A stretch of 35,735 nt of DNA from Armatimonadota bacterium. Its GTDB lineage: Bacteria > Armatimonadota > DTGP01 > JAKQQT01. Both the position numbers and the translations under genes were made by a program. Shown here one piece after another: positions 21,802 through 30,161 of the stretch; positions within the stretch are counted from its first letter, which is position 1, and the number at the start of each line of letters is the position of its first letter. A model generated the notes under the pieces. The model worked only from the letters and a program-made list of their open reading frames with translations, searched no databases and was not told the DNA's origin. The DNA is taken from NCBI GenBank assembly GCA_036504095.1, contig DASXVS010000028.1:1-35735 (forward strand), written 5' to 3'.

Positions 21802-23289
21802 CTATTTCCGGTATGTCAGCCCGATCGCCGGATGGCCGCGGTGCAGCAGATCCTGCATGCCGATCCCCAGCCCGACGCTGTCCGTCACCTGTCCCTGATA
21901 CATCAGATCCAGATGGGGATTATTCGGACTGTACAGATCCAGCGTCATCCGGCGGTTGCCGCGGATCATGGGCTCTCCGGCCGGTGCCGGCGCGCCCTTC
22001 AGCAGATAATCCGCGCCGGCACCGAGTTTGCTGGCGTGAATGCCATAGCGAATCTGCATGCGTTGCGTCGCACCGTCCACCATCTGGAGGTTGAATTTGT
22101 TGCCGTCACCCATGTCGTACAATCCCAGGAGGTAGGCTGTGTTGTTTGGCCGCGGGATCAACAGGTTCCAGTCCGCGCGGAACCGGCTCCCCTCACCGAA
22201 TGTCTGGACCGTGTCGATCTGCGATGCGATGCTCAGGCTCGGCGCGTGACGCGCGCCCGCCTTGTCCGCTACACCGTTGATCTTGTCGAGCAGGCTGCTC
22301 GCCTTTTCAGACACCTTCTGCACGGACATGATCGCCTCGCCGACCCGCGAGTTGGCCTGCCCGGTGGACGCCAGGTCGGCCATCACCTTCGCCGCGTCCG
22401 CCGACACTGCCTTGAAGTTCGCGGAAGCCGCCGCGATGTTCTGCATGGCTATCTTGGCGTTCGGCGCGATTTCGGCCCCATCGATGGTATCCTTGAGCGT
22501 AGCCCGCAGAAACGTGATGCTTTCATCGAAATTCTTCACCACACGGTTTGCGTTCGCCGTCATCTGCGCCATGTTGTGCGTGGTCAGTTCGGCGTTCTTT
22601 GTGATCGGGCCGATCGAGGACGTTCCGGACTCTACATCGTTCATAATCTTGTGAAGCGTCGGGATTTCGGTGTCGAGCACGGAGTTCAGCCTCGAGGCGG
22701 CAAGGACCGCCTGGCGCGAGACTTCCCGGGCGTTGCCCGCAGTCTCCTTCAGCGAATTCTGCAGGTTCGGGTCCCCGGAAAGCGTGGCAAGGTGCTGAGT
22801 CACCCGTTTCAGGTCCTTGATGATGTCGTTGGCGCCTTCCCCGAAATCGTTCGCTTTGAGGCGCAGGTCATCAAACGTCGGCAGGTCGGTCCCCACGATG
22901 ATAGGCACGGACCCGCCTTTGCTTGGGAGGAACTTGCCGGTGTCGCGCTTCGGGTCCGGCGATATCTGAACGAACATTTCGCCGAGCAGCCCGCCGGACG
23001 TAACCGTGTAGATGGCGCCCTCCGGTATCCGGCGGTCCGGGAAAATATTGAGGTGCATCACCGCCCGGCGTCCTGACGCATCCACGTCGATCTTCCGGAC
23101 CGTCCCGATCTTTACGCCGGCCAGGTGCACGTCCGCCCCTTCCTTCGTCCCCTGAGCGTCTTTGAAGGACACGTCCACGGGATAGCCGCCTATGCCCCGG
23201 CCAAGGAAGAACCAGAGAACGGCCGCCAAAAGGATGGCCGTTCCGATCACCACCGCGCCCACCTTTGCCGCCGCGTTTGTCTGCGCCAT
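21802..23289 (-). CDS. mlaD: MlaD-type MCE protein with long beta-rich C-terminus
   Basis: A 495-residue MCE-family protein that carries lipid between membranes with MlaE and MlaF. One N-terminal membrane anchor (VGAVVIGTAILLAAVLWFFLG) precedes the MCE domain (about 38-120: YPVDVSFKDAQGTKEGADVHLAGVKIGTV, GGLLGEMFVQISP). A long helical region (about 130-350) with many NxxxxxA/T heptads forms a coiled tunnel part. From about 360 to the end the sequence turns to alternating strands (AYLLGLYDMG, NLQMVDG, MQIRYGIHAS, MTLDLYSP, LDLMYQG, AIGLTYRK), like an outer-membrane barrel. E. coli MlaD is about 183 residues. A fused barrel is known from other diderm Terrabacteria. Confidence 0.9.
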   Translation of the reverse strand: MAQTNAAAKVGAVVIGTAILLAAVLWFFLGRGIGGYPVDVSFKDAQGTKEGADVHLAGVKIGTVRKIDVDASGRRAVMHLNIFPDRRIPEGAIYTVTSGGLLGEMFVQISPDPKRDTGKFLPSKGGSVPIIVGTDLPTFDDLRLKANDFGEGANDIIKDLKRVTQHLATLSGDPNLQNSLKETAGNAREVSRQAVLAASRLNSVLDTEIPTLHKIMNDVESGTSSIGPITKNAELTTHNMAQMTANANRVVKNFDESITFLRATLKDTIDGAEIAPNAKIAMQNIAAASANFKAVSADAAKVMADLASTGQANSRVGEAIMSVQKVSEKASSLLDKINGVADKAGARHAPSLSIASQIDTVQTFGEGSRFRADWNLLIPRPNNTAYLLGLYDMGDGNKFNLQMVDGATQRMQIRYGIHASKLGAGADYLLKGAPAPAGEPMIRGNRRMTLDLYSPNNPHLDLMYQGQVTDSVGLGIGMQDLLHRGHPAIGLTYRK

Positions 23290-23333
23290 TTCCCGCCCTC
23301 CCTGCCATACGCCGGGTAACCCGGCGCGTATCG

Positions 23334-24083
23334 CTACACCACTTCGATCGGCCCGTGCGGGCTGCCCTCGATGAATTGCCGCACCCGCCCGTCCGTGCTG
23401 CCTCGCACTTCATCGGGCGTTCCGCTTATGATAACTTCTCCGTCGTGCAGCATCGTCACTATGTCCGCAATCCGAAACACGCTGGATACGTTGTGTGACA
23501 CAACCAGCGACGTTACTTTCAACCGATCGCGCATCTCCACGATCAGCTCATCGATGACCGCCGCTGTTACGGGGTCCAGCCCGCTGGTGGGTTCGTCATA
23601 CAGCAGCACGGTCGGGTCGGACGCCAGGGCGCGCGCCAGGCCTACGCGCTTCTGCATGCCACCGGACAACTGCGAGGGCATCATCCTCTGCGTCCCGTCC
23701 ATCCCGACGAGACTCAGTTTCGCCGCCACGAGGTCGTCCAGCTCCCCGCCATGTTTCATGCCGCGCCGCAAAGGGCCGAACGCCACGTTATCGAACACCG
23801 TCATGGAGTCAAATAACGCCGCATACTGGAAGACATAGCCTATCGAAAGCCGAACCTCGTTCAAATCCCGTTCCGGGAGCCCCACGATTTGCTTGTCGCC
23901 GATCCAGACCTCTCCGCCGGATGCTTCAACCAACCCGGAAACGCATTTCAGCAGCGACGTCTTGCCGGTGCCCGAGAGCCCCATCACGCACATTGTCGTG
24001 CCGGACGGGATTTCCAGCGACACGTTCTTCAAGACTTCGAGCCCGCCCGGTACCGAGTATGTCAGATTACGAATTGAAATCAT
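23334..24083 (-). CDS. mlaF: MlaF-type ABC transporter ATPase
   Basis: A 249-residue ABC ATPase that powers MlaE/MlaD lipid transport. The Walker A is VMGLSGTGKTS, the Q-loop region YVFQYAALFDSMTV, the signature LSGGMQKRVGLARAL, and the Walker B VLLYDEPTSGLDP with the switch His in VVSHNVSSVF. These variations (Gly-Met-Gln-Lys in the signature, SGLDP) are typical of MlaF. It lies between mlaE (upstream) and mlaD (downstream), which is the expected order in many genomes. MlaB and MlaC equivalents are not nearby. Confidence 0.94.
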   Translation of the reverse strand: MISIRNLTYSVPGGLEVLKNVSLEIPSGTTMCVMGLSGTGKTSLLKCVSGLVEASGGEVWIGDKQIVGLPERDLNEVRLSIGYVFQYAALFDSMTVFDNVAFGPLRRGMKHGGELDDLVAAKLSLVGMDGTQRMMPSQLSGGMQKRVGLARALASDPTVLLYDEPTSGLDPVTAAVIDELIVEMRDRLKVTSLVVSHNVSSVFRIADIVTMLHDGEVIISGTPDEVRGSTDGRVRQFIEGSPHGPIEVV

Positions 24084-24240
24084 GATGGTTGGCTGAGAGC
24101 CAGGGGCTCGCGGACAGGGCCGGGAAAGCGTCCCGGCTTCGCCAATCGATTCTCCGGAGCGTTCACCCGCTTGTACACGCGATGCGCGCCTCGTTGTGTC
24201 ACGACCTACGCCGTTTGCCTGTTATTCAAGTCCGGACCGC

Positions 24241-25041
24241 CTACTGGATCGTTCCTACAAGCAGCCGGACGATTGCGAAGTCCGCCGCGTAGATGAGCAC
24301 GATGCAAAGCACCACGCTGCGCGTCGTCGCTCTTCCGACTCCGCTCGCTCCGCCTGAGGTCGTCAGGCCCTGATGGCATGATACGATCGCGATGATCGCC
24401 CCGAAAACGGTGGTCTTCAGGACGCCGATCACCACGTCCGAGACGCTGACATATTGCAGGACGGAGTCGAAATATTCCTGCCGGCCGATACCCTCGGTCT
24501 GAGCGACGATGAACCCGCCGAGCGTGCCCACCACGATGCCGAAGAGCGCCAGCACGGGAAGCATCGTGACGCATGCGATGAAGCGCGGGGCAACGAGGTA
24601 CTGGACAGGGTTCGTGGCCAATGAACGCAGCGCATCGATCTGCTCCGTTACCTTCATCGTGCCAAGCTCGGCCGCGATGGAGGAGCCAACCCGAGCGGCC
24701 ACCACAACGGCGGCGAGGACCGGGGCCAGTTCGCGCGCCATCGTGATCCCCACGAGGCCGCCGACATATGTCCCCAGGCCCAGTTTTGCCATCTGGCTGG
24801 CAGTGTACAGCGAAAGCACCATGCCGCTGAATGCGATCGTGATCAGCGAAATGGGCATGCTGTTCATGCCGACATTCGCCATGGCAGGAAAGGCATCGCC
24901 CGGCGATAGAACGTACCGAAGCGCCTGCCAGAACAGGATGGAGACCTCTCCAATGTAGCCGAGAGTCCGTACCACCACATTATCCGCGGTGTCGAATGTC
25001 CTCAACGCCGGGCGATAGAAATATCGGATGATCTTTCGCAT
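24241..25041 (-). CDS. mlaE: MlaE-type permease
   Basis: A 266-residue MlaE/YrbE permease of the inner membrane, which together with MlaF and MlaD moves phospholipid. It begins MRKIIRYFYRPALRTFDTADNVVV with an amphipathic helix and then five hydrophobic segments, including PISLITIAFSGMVLSLYTASQ. The family marks VGLVGITMARELAPVLAAVVVAARVGSSIAAELGTMKVTEQIDAL (in pieces) are complete. The ATG at 25041 lies five bases after the stop of the upstream glycosidase gene; a GTG at 25068 is in frame but would overlap that gene. The gap to mlaF is 157 bp. Confidence 0.94.
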   Translation of the reverse strand: MRKIIRYFYRPALRTFDTADNVVVRTLGYIGEVSILFWQALRYVLSPGDAFPAMANVGMNSMPISLITIAFSGMVLSLYTASQMAKLGLGTYVGGLVGITMARELAPVLAAVVVAARVGSSIAAELGTMKVTEQIDALRSLATNPVQYLVAPRFIACVTMLPVLALFGIVVGTLGGFIVAQTEGIGRQEYFDSVLQYVSVSDVVIGVLKTTVFGAIIAIVSCHQGLTTSGGASGVGRATTRSVVLCIVLIYAADFAIVRLLVGTIQ

Positions 25042-25046
25042 GATTG

Positions 25047-26681
25047 TCAGGTCGTCGGCGCGGGCCACGTTCGGGTCAGCACACCGCTCACCAGCGTGAC
25101 CGCTTCCTTTTCGTCTTTCAGCCAGCCCTTCGGCACGTCGGCGCGGCCGTCCGCGCCGGTCGCCACTTCTGTTTGCGTGCCGCCGGGCTTCGTCAGTATG
25201 ATCTCCTGCCCCTTCACGGGATTGTTATTCACGTCACGGATCGTGATTCGGAGCGTGCCCTCGTTCCAGGCAAGCAGCATCTTGCCGGCGGGGCCGGGCA
25301 ACACGTTGTACGTGCGGTTCAGGACCACCTTGCCGGCCGGGTCCATTGCGGCGACGGTTGCGCGGCCCGGCTTGTAGCCGTACAAGCCTGCGTCCTGCCC
25401 CACAAACGCTCCGCCATTGAGAGTACCCCAGAGACCGGCCTTTAGTCCCGCGGGATGGGCCACGTTCTGTCGGGAACCGTCCGACGGGAGGTCCGAGGGC
25501 TCGCCACCCCTCGCGTCAAGGGATCCGCCCGGGGTGATCTTGAGGGAATCGTCGAACACCAGCAGCGCATCCGCCACCTTTCGCACCTGCCCATCGGATG
25601 GGCAGTTGATGACCAGGCCGCGCACGCTCAAACACGTCGATCCGCCGCCGTCCAGGTTCAGCGCGTCTACCGCGCCGAGGCCCTTCATGGCTGCGGCAAG
25701 TTCCGGAAGGCTCATACCCCGGCTCAACGCCTGCCTGCCATCCACCGCAACGATCAGCACGGTGCCGTCGTTCTTCACCCCCACGGCGCTTCGCGGGTGC
25801 CGCGTGGTGCTGAAATCCGCAGCCACGTGCTCGCGTTCCAGCTCCAAGTCTTCCTTGCCAGCGGACAGGATGATCGGCCGGCCGGAAACGGCTTCGCGAA
25901 CGGCCGCCCAGTCCTTTCCACCGTCCACAATATCGGTGCGAATTCTGATCCGCTTGCCGGATGCCGCGTGGGATTTCAGCCAACCCGCGGCCGCGCCGGT
26001 ACCAGTCAGGACCAGGCCCTTTTTGGGGATTGCAACCGCGCCCGCTTCATCGCTCAGTGCCGTCACCACGGCATCCATTATTGAGCCTGCGCGGGGCGTG
26101 GGCTTCGAAGCCTCCAGCACGGCAACGGTCGCGGCCTTATCCGGGGTCCTCTCACCATAGACAGGAGCAAACAGGATGAGCTCACCGTCCCCCTGCTTGC
26201 GGTTCAGGCCGTTAAGCGCGACCCTGGCGCCGTCTTCCGCCGTCACCTCCGCCTCGAACACGGGACGGCCGAAGACCGTCTTTCCCCCGATGGTCAGTCC
26301 GAAAGCGCCGCACCCGTTCGCGGGTTCGCTGACGAGTTCGCCGTTGTGGATTTCCAGGCCCAGCGGGTCACCCGTGTACGGGAAGAAATCCGCGTTGATC
26401 CCTGCCAGCGCCCCCGTGCGGAGCACCTGATGGTTCACCGCCTCCATCCCGCCGCCGGGCTCTTCCACCGTGCCGCCGCCCAGCGATGCTTCCATACGGA
26501 TGCCATGCTCGGCCGGTTTGACGGACAGCACATGGATCAATTCCGGGCCACCCGGCTCCGCCGCGGAGATGACAATCTGTGTCAATTCCACTCCGTGCGC
26601 AACGCTCACCCGAGTCGTCTGCGACGCTGCGGCGGGCAGACAGAGCGCTAGCAGCCAGAGTGACAGACGGGGTCTTCGCAT
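25047..26681 (-). CDS. Phosphodiester glycosidase (NAGPA-type), secreted
   Basis: A 544-residue exported protein. A short signal peptide (LSLWLLALCLPAAAS) is followed by a phosphodiester glycosidase (NAGPA, formerly DUF2233) domain: RMEASLGGG, LAGINADFFPYTGDPLGLEIHNGELV, SAVGVKNDGTVLIVAVDGRQALSRGMSLPEL, and the diagnostic DALNLDGGGSTCL. This family removes sugars from phosphodiester-linked or exopolysaccharide conjugates. A C-terminal Ig-like segment (about 440-540, KVVLNRTYNVLPGPAGKM and GTLRITIRDVNNNPVKGQEI) may bind carbohydrate. It is the first gene of an apparent unit with mlaE-mlaF-mlaD and the S10 peptidase. Confidence 0.9.
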   Translation of the reverse strand: MRRPRLSLWLLALCLPAAASQTTRVSVAHGVELTQIVISAAEPGGPELIHVLSVKPAEHGIRMEASLGGGTVEEPGGGMEAVNHQVLRTGALAGINADFFPYTGDPLGLEIHNGELVSEPANGCGAFGLTIGGKTVFGRPVFEAEVTAEDGARVALNGLNRKQGDGELILFAPVYGERTPDKAATVAVLEASKPTPRAGSIMDAVVTALSDEAGAVAIPKKGLVLTGTGAAAGWLKSHAASGKRIRIRTDIVDGGKDWAAVREAVSGRPIILSAGKEDLELEREHVAADFSTTRHPRSAVGVKNDGTVLIVAVDGRQALSRGMSLPELAAAMKGLGAVDALNLDGGGSTCLSVRGLVINCPSDGQVRKVADALLVFDDSLKITPGGSLDARGGEPSDLPSDGSRQNVAHPAGLKAGLWGTLNGGAFVGQDAGLYGYKPGRATVAAMDPAGKVVLNRTYNVLPGPAGKMLLAWNEGTLRITIRDVNNNPVKGQEIILTKPGGTQTEVATGADGRADVPKGWLKDEKEAVTLVSGVLTRTWPAPTT

Positions 26682-26978: not shown

Positions 26979-28367
26979 ATGAGAACAATATCCCACCCAG
27001 ATGGTAATGAACCTGCGCAGCCTCATGAGGATGCCTCTTTGAGAACAGTACGAGACGTGATGACGGCGCACACTGTTAGCGCCCGCCCCACAACCCCGGT
27101 ACATAACGCCGTGCTGCTGATGCGAACCCATTCGCTCTGCGCCATGGCAGTCATCGACGACGGCCAGGTAGTCGGAGTCGTGGACGCGGCCACGTTGTTC
27201 ATGTACCAGCCGGACATTATGCTCCGGGACATTATGGGGCCAAGCGTCAGCGTCGATGCCGAGGCAACCCTCTCCACCGCCGCCTCTCTCATGCGCGCAC
27301 ACGGTCTCGCTGAGCTCCCGGTCGTAGATAGCGATCTGTGCGGCACCGTCAAGGCGGTTGACCTGCTCGGCGCATGGGCGATGCCGGTCGATCCGCTCAC
27401 CGGGCTTCCCTGGCAGGACTCTTTCCGGCTCCGGTCGTCAACCGCATTGGCATCCGGCGAGGAACTGACTCTGCTCTTCTTCGATCTCGATGATTTCGGG
27501 GCTCTGAACAAGAAGCACGGACACATCGTCGGCGACCGCGCCCTCAAGGCCGTCGCGCACGCCATCCGGTCTGCGCTGGACACCAAGCTTGACATCGGAT
27601 GCCGTTTCGGCGGCGATGAATTCGTGGTCAGCACGACCCGCCCGCGCGCGGAGGCAGTCGAATGGGCGGCTTCGGTCCGCCGCGAAATCCAGGCTCTTGT
27701 CGTCGAAGGACTCGAAGGCGGAGTGGGCGTCAGCGTAGGGATCGCCGGCGGCCTGCGTCACGGCGACCGGCCCGGCACCCACGGTCCCGCAACCCTCGAT
27801 GACCTCATTAACCGTGCCAGCCAGGCATCTACCGTGGCGAAAGCCACGCCGTCCCACATCATGAGCCTGGACAAGGACGTCCCGCACGCCACGCCACGCC
27901 CGCAGGAACCGGCCTTCGAGCCCCGCGCGGCGCGCATCCGCATCCGCGGGATACAGGCGGATGTCGAAGGCGCCAGGATGCAGGCGTCGGTCCGCCTTGA
28001 ACTGAAGGGCGTCCTGTACAACGGCCTGCACGAGGGCGCGTCCGACGACGCCCCGGCCACTATTGCGGAAGCCGCCGCCAAAGCCCTCAGCGGCTTCCTT
28101 CCAGCCGCCCACGCCATCCATCCCTCCTCCGTGAAACTGCATACACTGGACGACGGCAGCAAAGTGGTGATGGCGATGGTCCGTATGGACAGCCCGCACG
28201 GCCGCCAGAACCTCGTCGGCGTGGCCGATGCTTCAACGGACCCGCACCACGCGGTCGTGAAAGCCATCCTGGATGCCGTGAACCGTCCGCTGGAGGCCAT
28301 CACGCTCCTGTCCGCCCCCGAACTCATCGCATCCCCATCGGTCCAAACAGCCGCCTCCCGAAACTAG
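26979..28367 (+). CDS. CBS-pair and GGDEF protein with unassigned C-terminal domain
   Basis: A 462-residue cytoplasmic protein. Residues about 22-130 are two CBS domains (DVMTAHTVSARPTTPVHNAVLLM and DIMGPSVSVDAEATLSTAASLM), which bind adenine nucleotides. Residues about 137-300 are a GGDEF diguanylate cyclase with intact RFGGDEF (211-215), preceded by LFFDLDDFGALN. The RxxD inhibitory site is replaced by TKLD. Residues about 315-450 form a third domain I cannot name; it has a strand-rich start (RIRIRGIQADVEGARMQ) and AVVKAILDAVNRPLEAI at the end. A TTG at 27039 with GAGGA seven bases upstream is a serious alternative start just ahead of the CBS pair. Confidence 0.88.
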   Translation: MRTISHPDGNEPAQPHEDASLRTVRDVMTAHTVSARPTTPVHNAVLLMRTHSLCAMAVIDDGQVVGVVDAATLFMYQPDIMLRDIMGPSVSVDAEATLSTAASLMRAHGLAELPVVDSDLCGTVKAVDLLGAWAMPVDPLTGLPWQDSFRLRSSTALASGEELTLLFFDLDDFGALNKKHGHIVGDRALKAVAHAIRSALDTKLDIGCRFGGDEFVVSTTRPRAEAVEWAASVRREIQALVVEGLEGGVGVSVGIAGGLRHGDRPGTHGPATLDDLINRASQASTVAKATPSHIMSLDKDVPHATPRPQEPAFEPRAARIRIRGIQADVEGARMQASVRLELKGVLYNGLHEGASDDAPATIAEAAAKALSGFLPAAHAIHPSSVKLHTLDDGSKVVMAMVRMDSPHGRQNLVGVADASTDPHHAVVKAILDAVNRPLEAITLLSAPELIASPSVQTAASRN

Positions 28368-28451
28368 AAGCAGATGGCGGCGGCCCGCATTCTGAAGCCC
28401 TGCCCATGAATGCCGTTCCCAGCGGCCGGCACGCGCTACCATGAAGGTGCG

Positions 28452-30161
28452 ATGAAAAACCGATCAACCCATTTGAGACGCGCCGCGCTCCGCGGCGCGT
28501 TGTTTGTGTGCGTGGCGTCGCTCGGGGCGGCGCGTGCCGAAGACGGCTATGCGCGCGAGACGCTGAACGGCCTGGCCTTGCTCAGGGCGGGTGATCCGGC
28601 CGGCGCGGCTGTTGCCCTGGGACGCGCGATACGGTATGACGCCAACGACCCGACGGCGTGGATCACCTTCGGCGCCGTGCTCCTCGACACGTCCAACGTA
28701 ACGGCCGCCCGCGGTTGCTTCCAGCGCGCAGGACGCCTGGACCCGTCATCGCCGCACGCCCCCCTCGGCCTTGCGCTCTGCGCCATGGCCGACGGCAAGA
28801 ACGGCGATCCGGCGCGCCTTCTTGCCCAGTCCGCATCCCGGGGCTCCGGCGCCGCCTCGGCCCTGGCAACCTATCTGGACGCACTAAACGGCCGGCAATT
28901 CCAGCCACCCGCCGCGAGCGGCGCGTTCTCGTCCGCTCTCACGGCGTTCGCGGCGCGAAAATCGGGCGCGGAACCCGACTGGGGGTCGGCGCTCCCACTG
29001 ACCTTCGCGCCGGTCCACTGGCCCCTCACCGCGTCGTTTGACGCCAAGCGCCCTCTGGAAATCCGCTGGCAGTCCAACCCGCGAATTCAACGCCCGCCGC
29101 GCGAGCCGGTGGAAGCGGTTTCAGGCTCCTCGGTGCTGAAGGCGCCGGGCTCAAGCGCCCTGGCCACCGCCAGCTTCGACATCGACGGCTCCCTGGCGTC
29201 GTTCACAAACGTCTCGCCGTTCGAGTGGACTTGGGACACCGGCCAGTGGCCGGACGGCTGGCACTTTGTTCATGCGACCGCGGTCACCACTTCCGGGTCA
29301 ACTGTAACGCGCGACCGATGGGTGGCGACCTCGAACGCGCACAAATCGCCTCCCCGCGCCTATCCGGAACTCAAGGACGTCGCGGTGCTGTTGGACCAAG
29401 CGCTTGCGGTGCAGCCCGACGTGCGTTACCTGCATTTCGCCCTGGCGAAATCCGCCCTCGCCCAGCGCAGGCCGGAGGACGCCCGTGCCCAGCTGGAGGA
29501 CGTGGTCGCCGAGGACCCCCGCTATCTCGACGCTGCCCACCTCTTGCGCGGACTGTCCGCCGCGGCGCGGCCACTGGAGATATGGCGCGGCGATCGGGCG
29601 TCGAAGCGCGTGGCCCTCACGTTTGATGACGGCCCGGACCCCCGCCATACGCCGCAACTGCTCGATGTGCTCGATCGGCTCAAAATCCCGGCGACCTTTT
29701 TCGTTGTCGGGAAGCAGGCGGCCGCTTATCCGGACACCATCAAACGGATGGCGCGGGCCGGCTACGAGATCGAGAATCACACTTGGAACCACCGAAATCT
29801 GAACCGCCTGTCCGCCGCGGACGCTCTTCGCGAACTGGCCTCCACAAAGCGGCTGATCGCCGGCCTTACCGGCGCTCCCACCCGATACTTTCGCCCGCCC
29901 GGTGGCAATATCGGCAAGGCCGCCCACCTCGCCGGCCGGGCGTTGGGTCTGCCGGCAGTAATGTGGACCTTCGCCAGCGGCAAGAGCGAAGGGCTGCCCC
30001 TCGAGGATATGGTCCCGCGCTTTGTCCACGCCGCGAAACCGGGATCCATCTACCTCATTCACAACGGAACTGAGAAGATTGAGGAATTGCTGCCCCTCGT
30101 GGTCCAGGCGCTTCACGCGAGGGGATATGAGTTCGTCCGCCTCGATGCGCTGGCGCCATAG
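28452..30161 (+). CDS. TPR and NodB-type polysaccharide deacetylase, secreted
   Basis: A protein of about 569 residues. After a signal peptide (GALFVCVASLGAARA) comes a TPR-like region (GLALLRAGDPAGAAVALGRAIRYDANDPTAW, in pieces; about 30-110), then a spacer with an Ig-like segment (about 200-290: SVLKAPG... FEWTWDTGQWPDGWHFVHATAVT), one more TPR (about 300-375), and the NodB domain from about 385. NodB motifs are TFDDGPD (Asp392-Asp393), HTWNH (His443, His447), RPPGG and VMWTF. Motif 5, normally L-H-D-type, reads LIHNG with Asn538. The ATG has GAAGG before it. Its substrate is unknown. Confidence 0.88.
   Translation: MKNRSTHLRRAALRGALFVCVASLGAARAEDGYARETLNGLALLRAGDPAGAAVALGRAIRYDANDPTAWITFGAVLLDTSNVTAARGCFQRAGRLDPSSPHAPLGLALCAMADGKNGDPARLLAQSASRGSGAASALATYLDALNGRQFQPPAASGAFSSALTAFAARKSGAEPDWGSALPLTFAPVHWPLTASFDAKRPLEIRWQSNPRIQRPPREPVEAVSGSSVLKAPGSSALATASFDIDGSLASFTNVSPFEWTWDTGQWPDGWHFVHATAVTTSGSTVTRDRWVATSNAHKSPPRAYPELKDVAVLLDQALAVQPDVRYLHFALAKSALAQRRPEDARAQLEDVVAEDPRYLDAAHLLRGLSAAARPLEIWRGDRASKRVALTFDDGPDPRHTPQLLDVLDRLKIPATFFVVGKQAAAYPDTIKRMARAGYEIENHTWNHRNLNRLSAADALRELASTKRLIAGLTGAPTRYFRPPGGNIGKAAHLAGRALGLPAVMWTFASGKSEGLPLEDMVPRFVHAAKPGSIYLIHNGTEKIEELLPLVVQALHARGYEFVRLDALAP

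Follow-up and report, generated by a model that had tools for sequence, protein, structure and literature searches.

The gene and its predicted product

The window, meaning the whole analysed stretch of 35,735 nucleotides from an Armatimonadota bacterium, carries on its forward strand a gene whose reading frame runs exactly from an ATG at 26979 to a stop codon ending at 28367. Its product of 462 amino acids is organized as CBS-CBS-GGDEF-LeuA-like, which is a new combination of known domains. A tandem CBS (Bateman) module occupies residues ~21-132 (27039-27374), the GGDEF domain occupies residues 137-290 (27387-27848), and a linker (27849-27926), which corresponds to a gapped and variable stretch of the alignment of long-form proteins (alignment A6; the window protein with 23 of 25 long relatives), leads to the LeuA-like tail (27927-28313), conserved over residues ~317-445. 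Pfam detected the CBS domains in two stretches (PF00571, 63.8 bits), the best being 83-132 and the lower limit of CBS1 being estimated from alignment A6, as well as the GGDEF domain (PF00990, 72.7 bits, E 3.8e-20), both above the cut-offs; the NCBIfam model TIGR00254 scored 75.1 bits. Searched whole against Pfam at E<=10, the protein matched no family beyond CBS and GGDEF. Long antisense open reading frames overlap the gene.

A gene on the same strand coding for a TPR and polysaccharide deacetylase protein (28410-30161; Polysacc_deac_1, 129.5 bits) starts 42 bp downstream. An operon is not established despite this short gap, given a terminator-like hairpin at 28477-28501; eight such sites were found, and shuffling predicts 2.6. 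Upstream, the reverse strand (21802-25068 and 25047-26681) carries MlaD, ABC ATPase and MlaE lipid-transport genes together with a divergent phosphodiester glycosidase (NAGPA) gene.

The GGDEF domain has the hallmarks of a diguanylate cyclase (PF00990, TIGR00254). The GG[DE]EF motif (residues 211-215, 27609-27623, read from the translation and alignment A6), the acidic metal ligands and the guanine-binding N and D are present (D169, N177, D186, D213, E214 and F215, in 24/24), and R209, G212 and K288 are likewise kept in all 24 rows. We take the roles of the metal and guanine residues, and the presence of the equivalent of K442, from PleD-type numbering. The window protein reads DPLTGLPW where the canonical form is DxLTGLxNR. 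The family has no I-site, the column that presumably corresponds to R446 of PleD is variable (S292 in the window protein), and an additional stretch, GGxRxxxRxxxHxxATxDxL, specific to this GGDEF subfamily, lies near the end of the domain (residues 257-277, 27747-27809). Its R260, R264 and H268 are invariant in 24/24 tail-bearing proteins.

At the I-site position, TKLD replaces RxxD (residues 202-205, 27582-27593): T202 stands nine residues ahead of the GGDEF motif, D205 is kept at -6, and the arginine at -9 is absent in 24/24 rows of alignment A6. Because the arginine is missing throughout while the catalytic residues are invariant, its absence is a trait of the family and not a local loss, and classical RxxD product inhibition is unlikely, judging from the sequences. 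Other diguanylate cyclases, too, not uncommonly lack RxxD. The initial annotation, which had noted the missing inhibitory site and had gone on to propose a loss of product inhibition, was thus right about the site; the second proposal is likely to hold as far as RxxD-type inhibition is concerned. We predict that the protein is a diguanylate cyclase without the RxxD feedback site.

Fold and ancestry of the C-terminal domain

AlphaFold2 applied to 30 tails (alignment A1, the window tail and 29 of 30 others, L013 being left out) yielded a model with a mean pLDDT of 93.4 and a pTM of 0.87, in which the elements follow the order βββα-βββα. The first unit comprises strands at residues 321-330, 333-342 and 345-354 followed by an Ala-rich helix (355-371); the second comprises strands at 379-389, 395-405 and 408-417 and the last helix (422-445), which contains AVVKAILDAVNRPLE at 425-439. 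With a pLDDT of 93, a disordered tail is ruled out. The strands, Ala-rich helix and final motif described in the initial annotation thus belong to an ordered third domain, and the presence of tail relatives at E<=0.001 in 69/291 genomes of the same phylum (Armatimonadota; 48/194 of the good-quality ones), in a translated search, makes this layout more than a product of chance.

The regulatory domain of LeuA is also built of two βββα units (PMC10464499; the fold is also described in PMC11057210), and by AlphaFold2, Foldseek and VIA-align 2 the tail model contains both units in a single domain. A Foldseek search of the PDB returned eleven matches at E<=0.001, ten of them to Mycobacterium tuberculosis LeuA or to the regulatory domain of the Leptospira citramalate synthase. 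The eleventh, a Dicer/TARBP2 chain, was discarded at an rmsd of 28 Å, as were the other dsRNA-binding chains of the list (rmsd >15 Å). VIA-align 2 placed the citramalate synthase (LiCMS) regulatory domain on top (Z 10.5 and 10.2, 120 and 109 aligned residues, rmsd 3.3 and 2.7) and LeuA next (Z 8.6-9.2). The scores then fall to Z<=7.8, where matches such as ribosomal protein uS5 and RAD52 cover only part of the model. The match to M. tuberculosis LeuA (1sr9/3fig) and L. interrogans citramalate synthase (3f6g/3f6h) spans nearly the whole domain.

Comparison of profiles points the same way. An hhalign of 59 tails (alignment A4, the window tail and 58 of 112 others) with 28 LeuA/CimA domains of the same phylum (alignment A3, 28 of 29, the masked L186 being dropped) gave a probability of 95.8 and a pairwise E of 7.3e-9, which is not a database E, over 113 columns; controls gave 0.26 for a reversed profile and 0.16-0.78 for ten column shuffles. 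Long forms alone reached 3.5e-7, and short forms alone 5.2e-9. Against the Pfam family LeuA_dimer (PF08502), the window tail scored 13.1 bits, under the cut-off of 24.9, one short relative passed it at 25.0, and 16/46 short relatives matched at E<=1 (alignment A5 contains 46 of 87 short forms). Several searches were negative: LeuA was not among the matches at E<=10 when PDB sequences were searched with the tail-profile HMM (the best was a de novo design, 0.0068), the single tail sequence matched no PDB sequence, and no family of PHROGs or NCBIfam was found for the tail. Weak Pfam names (MAGE, DUF3725, WH4_Lhr, Ntox10, TonB_C and others) were set aside, each being found in one or two members and lying below the cut-off where shown.

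Weighing the fold, the hhalign result and the Pfam scores of the short relatives together with the negative HMM search of PDB sequences, we conclude that the tail is a distant but real homologue of the allosteric (regulatory) domain of 2-isopropylmalate and citramalate synthases. The domain that the initial annotation had left unassigned is therefore identified by both its fold and its profile-level homology.

The last helix is similar in the two (A..A.L.A.NR and A.AY..ALNK). The architecture differs, as the tail is fused to CBS-GGDEF and is not attached to a DRE-TIM synthase. The window genome has two separate, ordinary LeuA_dimer genes elsewhere. The loop ahead of helix 1, AxGxGPVDA in the LeuA/CimA consensus, is not kept and reads EGASDDAPAT in the window tail. 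In the short relatives, the first loop and helix start follow the columns G-x-x-A-x-G (G 33, A 28, G 33, then R 25 and L 27, of 36); the window tail has A-T where they have R-L at the start of helix 1, and its first loop is shortened, but it retains both glycines there and, in the second loop, the G-x-A...D. Given these differences in the loop and helix start, the pocket may differ or be dead, and on residue patterns the window copy may bind another ligand, or none.

Long and short carriers of the domain and their neighbours

The tail occurs in two forms, namely CBS-CBS-GGDEF-tail proteins of ~430-540 aa and short proteins of ~220 aa with a different N-terminal domain, so that the comparison suggested in the initial annotation turned up both GGDEF and non-GGDEF carriers. 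Between the two forms, the tails are closely homologous (hhalign E 1.3e-32). Relatives of the whole window protein (P0001) were found at E<=1e-25 in 18/61 sampled genomes of the phylum, the match ending at the end of GGDEF in three of them; among the named loci that match the whole protein, 7/10 are Armatimonadetes or Fimbriimonad(al)es/Fimbriimonadia. The window genome contains the long form, and the short form was not found in it. One genome of the same family (G059, the one shown) gave neither a tail match nor a P0001 relative at E<=1e-25, and a genome of the same class (G058) carries a short gene paired with an HD-GYP gene (L061). Two clostridial CBS-GGDEF proteins (L036 and L038) stop soon after GGDEF, and the tail is therefore not general to CBS-GGDEF proteins. 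Four others (L032, L033, L034 and L039) have tails that appear strongly diverged by eye, with a weak tail-profile match in L034 (E 6.5e-6). A match in Wenzhouxiangella (L040) lies in GGDEF only and was left unused.

The short proteins share the tail domain with the window protein, but a ~70-residue alpha/beta domain takes the place of CBS-GGDEF and their neighbouring gene would degrade c-di-GMP instead of making it. The model of the short protein (pLDDT 93.3, pTM 0.67) has LeuA as its best Foldseek match (E 3.2e-7) with an rmsd of 15 Å over both domains, so only the C-terminal domain reads as LeuA-like. The N-terminal domain (for example in L054:7411-8067) carries the motif E.HVL....R.PKQ.VRDIESAL...G...DHKK.S.AQ and is probably the source of the model's weak structural matches to ZnT zinc transporters (Foldseek E 0.016-0.03). 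No NCBIfam family was found at E<=0.01 for the three short proteins scanned.

Beyond the Armatimonadota, the genome of L038 (Candidatus Formimonas warabiya) gave access to a second phylum, here called Bacillota, and 106/249 sampled genomes of this phylum have a match to the short protein, two of them weak (E 6e-4 and 1e-3). A same-strand HD-GYP gene starts within 1 kb downstream of the short gene in 22/23 testable regions of the first phylum and in 21/39 of the second. These counts include related genomes and are not independent events. They derive from 69 regions (27 + 42), seven of which (4 + 3) were dropped for having less than 2 kb downstream, leaving 62. The 27 first-phylum regions were hand-picked across families; the 42 others comprise 35 taken at about every third match and five divergent regions, the L036 and L038 genomes supplying the last two, and three genomes gave two regions each. 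The profile used to recognize HD-GYP genes was custom-built, and of its ten seed loci seven also belong to the counted regions. Pfam HD_5 was found in each of the three HD-GYP neighbours scanned. Two belong to L054; the third, which also has MASE9, comes from L069, a locus outside the counted regions.

Chance adjacency would amount to ~0.1-0.2% per gene as computed from HD_5 counts (11 and 14 genomes), the 25 genomes counted besides that of the window having 3-20 HD_5 genes each. In the second phylum, HD_5 genes are present in 106/106 genomes with a short match versus 124/143 without one (Fisher p 3e-5, uncorrected for kinship). The genes flanking the pair differ, with pheT in L053 and L054 (by profile) versus hpf, comF and secA in L067 (by eye), which makes the short/HD-GYP pair itself the shared element there. 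In first-phylum loci such as L052, L053, L054, L128 and L137, two tandem HD-GYP genes often follow the short gene, the longer of them bearing an N-terminal part and the other, in several cases, coding for ~230 aa. In L052 and L130, a CBS-GGDEF-tail gene and the short/HD-GYP group lie inside one stretch of ~7 kb.

No HD-GYP gene on the same strand begins within 1 kb downstream in the other 18 of the 39 second-phylum regions. In nine of them, the short gene directly precedes secA (five by profile, four by eye), and in two (L121 and L125) an HD-GYP gene is nearby in another arrangement. At one exception (L108:5934-7004, reverse strand), the short gene is immediately preceded by a gene for an amino-acid dehydrogenase, the best NCBIfam model being tryptophan dehydrogenase ScyB (424.6 bits, below its cut-off of 600).

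Altogether, a LeuA-type allosteric domain is recurrently tied to genes of c-di-GMP turnover, which was unexpected. Borne both by a cyclase and by short proteins encoded next to HD-GYP genes, it may act as a shared metabolic switch.

Regulatory input and competing explanations

In LeuA, the regulatory domain lies at the dimer interface, where leucine occupies pockets beneath a closing loop (PMC11057210). GGDEF enzymes in turn require dimers, catalysis needing two GGDEF domains to come together (PMC7825114), and a ligand-gated dimer at the C-terminus would therefore be a plausible on/off device. The computations establish how the domain folds, what it is related to, which residues are conserved and that it recurs in short proteins whose genes often precede those of HD-GYP phosphodiesterases; dimerisation, ligand, activity and direction of control are what we infer, as follows. 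The tail would dimerise like LeuA regulatory domains and bind a small metabolite at the dimer interface, an amino acid or a related acid being the first candidate. Binding would bring together or part the two GGDEF domains needed to condense two GTP, and this switch would replace product feedback on c-di-GMP synthesis. We therefore favor, with a probability of about one half, a cyclase without RxxD feedback whose LeuA-type allosteric tail would let the metabolic state inside the cell switch c-di-GMP synthesis, the same module being used on both arms of turnover. A broader proposal, which we put forward more tentatively, is that LeuA-type domains were recruited as metabolite sensors for c-di-GMP in at least two phyla, fused to CBS-GGDEF or separate beside HD-GYP, such that the supply of amino acids or branched-chain acids would set the sessile/motile signal from both sides.

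Other explanations share part of this evidence. The tail could be a constitutive scaffold in which the LeuA fold pairs two cyclases and binds no ligand, as would fit both the dimeric state of LeuA and the dimer requirement of GGDEF enzymes, as well as the shortened first loop of the window copy, unlike that of LeuA. CBS pairs, however, already dimerise as a rule, and the loop and helix-start residues conserved in the short proteins (G-x-x-A-x-G and G-x-A...D) are not obviously needed by a mere scaffold, making this explanation rather doubtful. Even less credit is given to a protein-protein adaptor, in which the cyclase and the short protein would pair through their LeuA-like domains and couple synthesis to HD-GYP degradation in those relatives that have both. 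Such pairing would suit the close homology of the two tails, their co-occurrence in the ~7 kb stretches of L052 and L130, and the 37/69 tail-positive genomes with two matches, not all of which are classed as one long and one short; in many of the genomes listed, however, the two matches are widely spaced or do not share a contig, and the short protein is missing from the window genome. We consider equally improbable that the GGDEF domain is a sensor of GTP or c-di-GMP and not a cyclase. Its score is the second lowest among the eight of the genome (75.6 bits, range 55.4-164.5), and both the unconserved R446 equivalent and the family-specific stretch near the domain end would be in keeping with such a role, against which stands the conservation in 24/24 of the residues that we take to be the metal and guanine ligands and the K442 equivalent.

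The CBS pair offers the remaining candidate input. By Pfam, the protein has two CBS domains, as an adenine-nucleotide-binding pair would, and the initial annotation had linked them to energy state. The usual CBS ligand motif is [ST]xx[DN]. CBS1 of the window protein reads VGVVDAAT and CBS2 GTVKAVD, so that neither repeat has it, and the case for adenine-nucleotide or energy sensing is accordingly weak for this copy; in alignment A6 the motif is present in CBS2 of 16/24 members and in CBS1 of 1/24, which leaves such sensing possible in relatives. A cyclase that takes its main control from the CBS pair, whether through adenine nucleotides or some other ligand, with the tail as a minor stabiliser, would agree with CBS scores over the Pfam cut-off and with the motif kept in CBS2 of those relatives, but is unlikely for the window protein, which lacks it in both repeats. 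The LeuA-like tail is the more likely metabolic input, instead of or besides the CBS pair.

CBS domains beside GGDEF are known in c-di-GMP metabolism from the EAL-CBS-GGDEF proteins PA3258 / RapA (PMC12900916). These carry EAL, unlike the window protein, the homologue RapA being termed a phosphodiesterase, and the passage that describes them names no further tail domain. The stimuli that act on c-di-GMP enzymes were reviewed in 2022 (PMC8846402). Amino-acid inputs are described there through dCACHE1 and SBP_bac_3 (SpdE, STM1987, RmcA), whereas CBS domains are only presumed to sense energy; the term "isopropylmalate" was not found within that paper. In the open-access literature, our searches found no paper combining CBS domain, GGDEF and LeuA, no occurrence of PF08502, and neither MASE9 together with HD-GYP nor HD-GYP and GGDEF together with Armatimonadetes. 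A LeuA-like module on a cyclase and beside a phosphodiesterase gene would link biosynthetic state directly to c-di-GMP. The short protein, present in 106/249 genomes of the second phylum, gains a likely fold and a genomic context. As to output in the window genome, exopolysaccharide is a possible target of c-di-GMP through the TPR and polysaccharide deacetylase protein encoded downstream.
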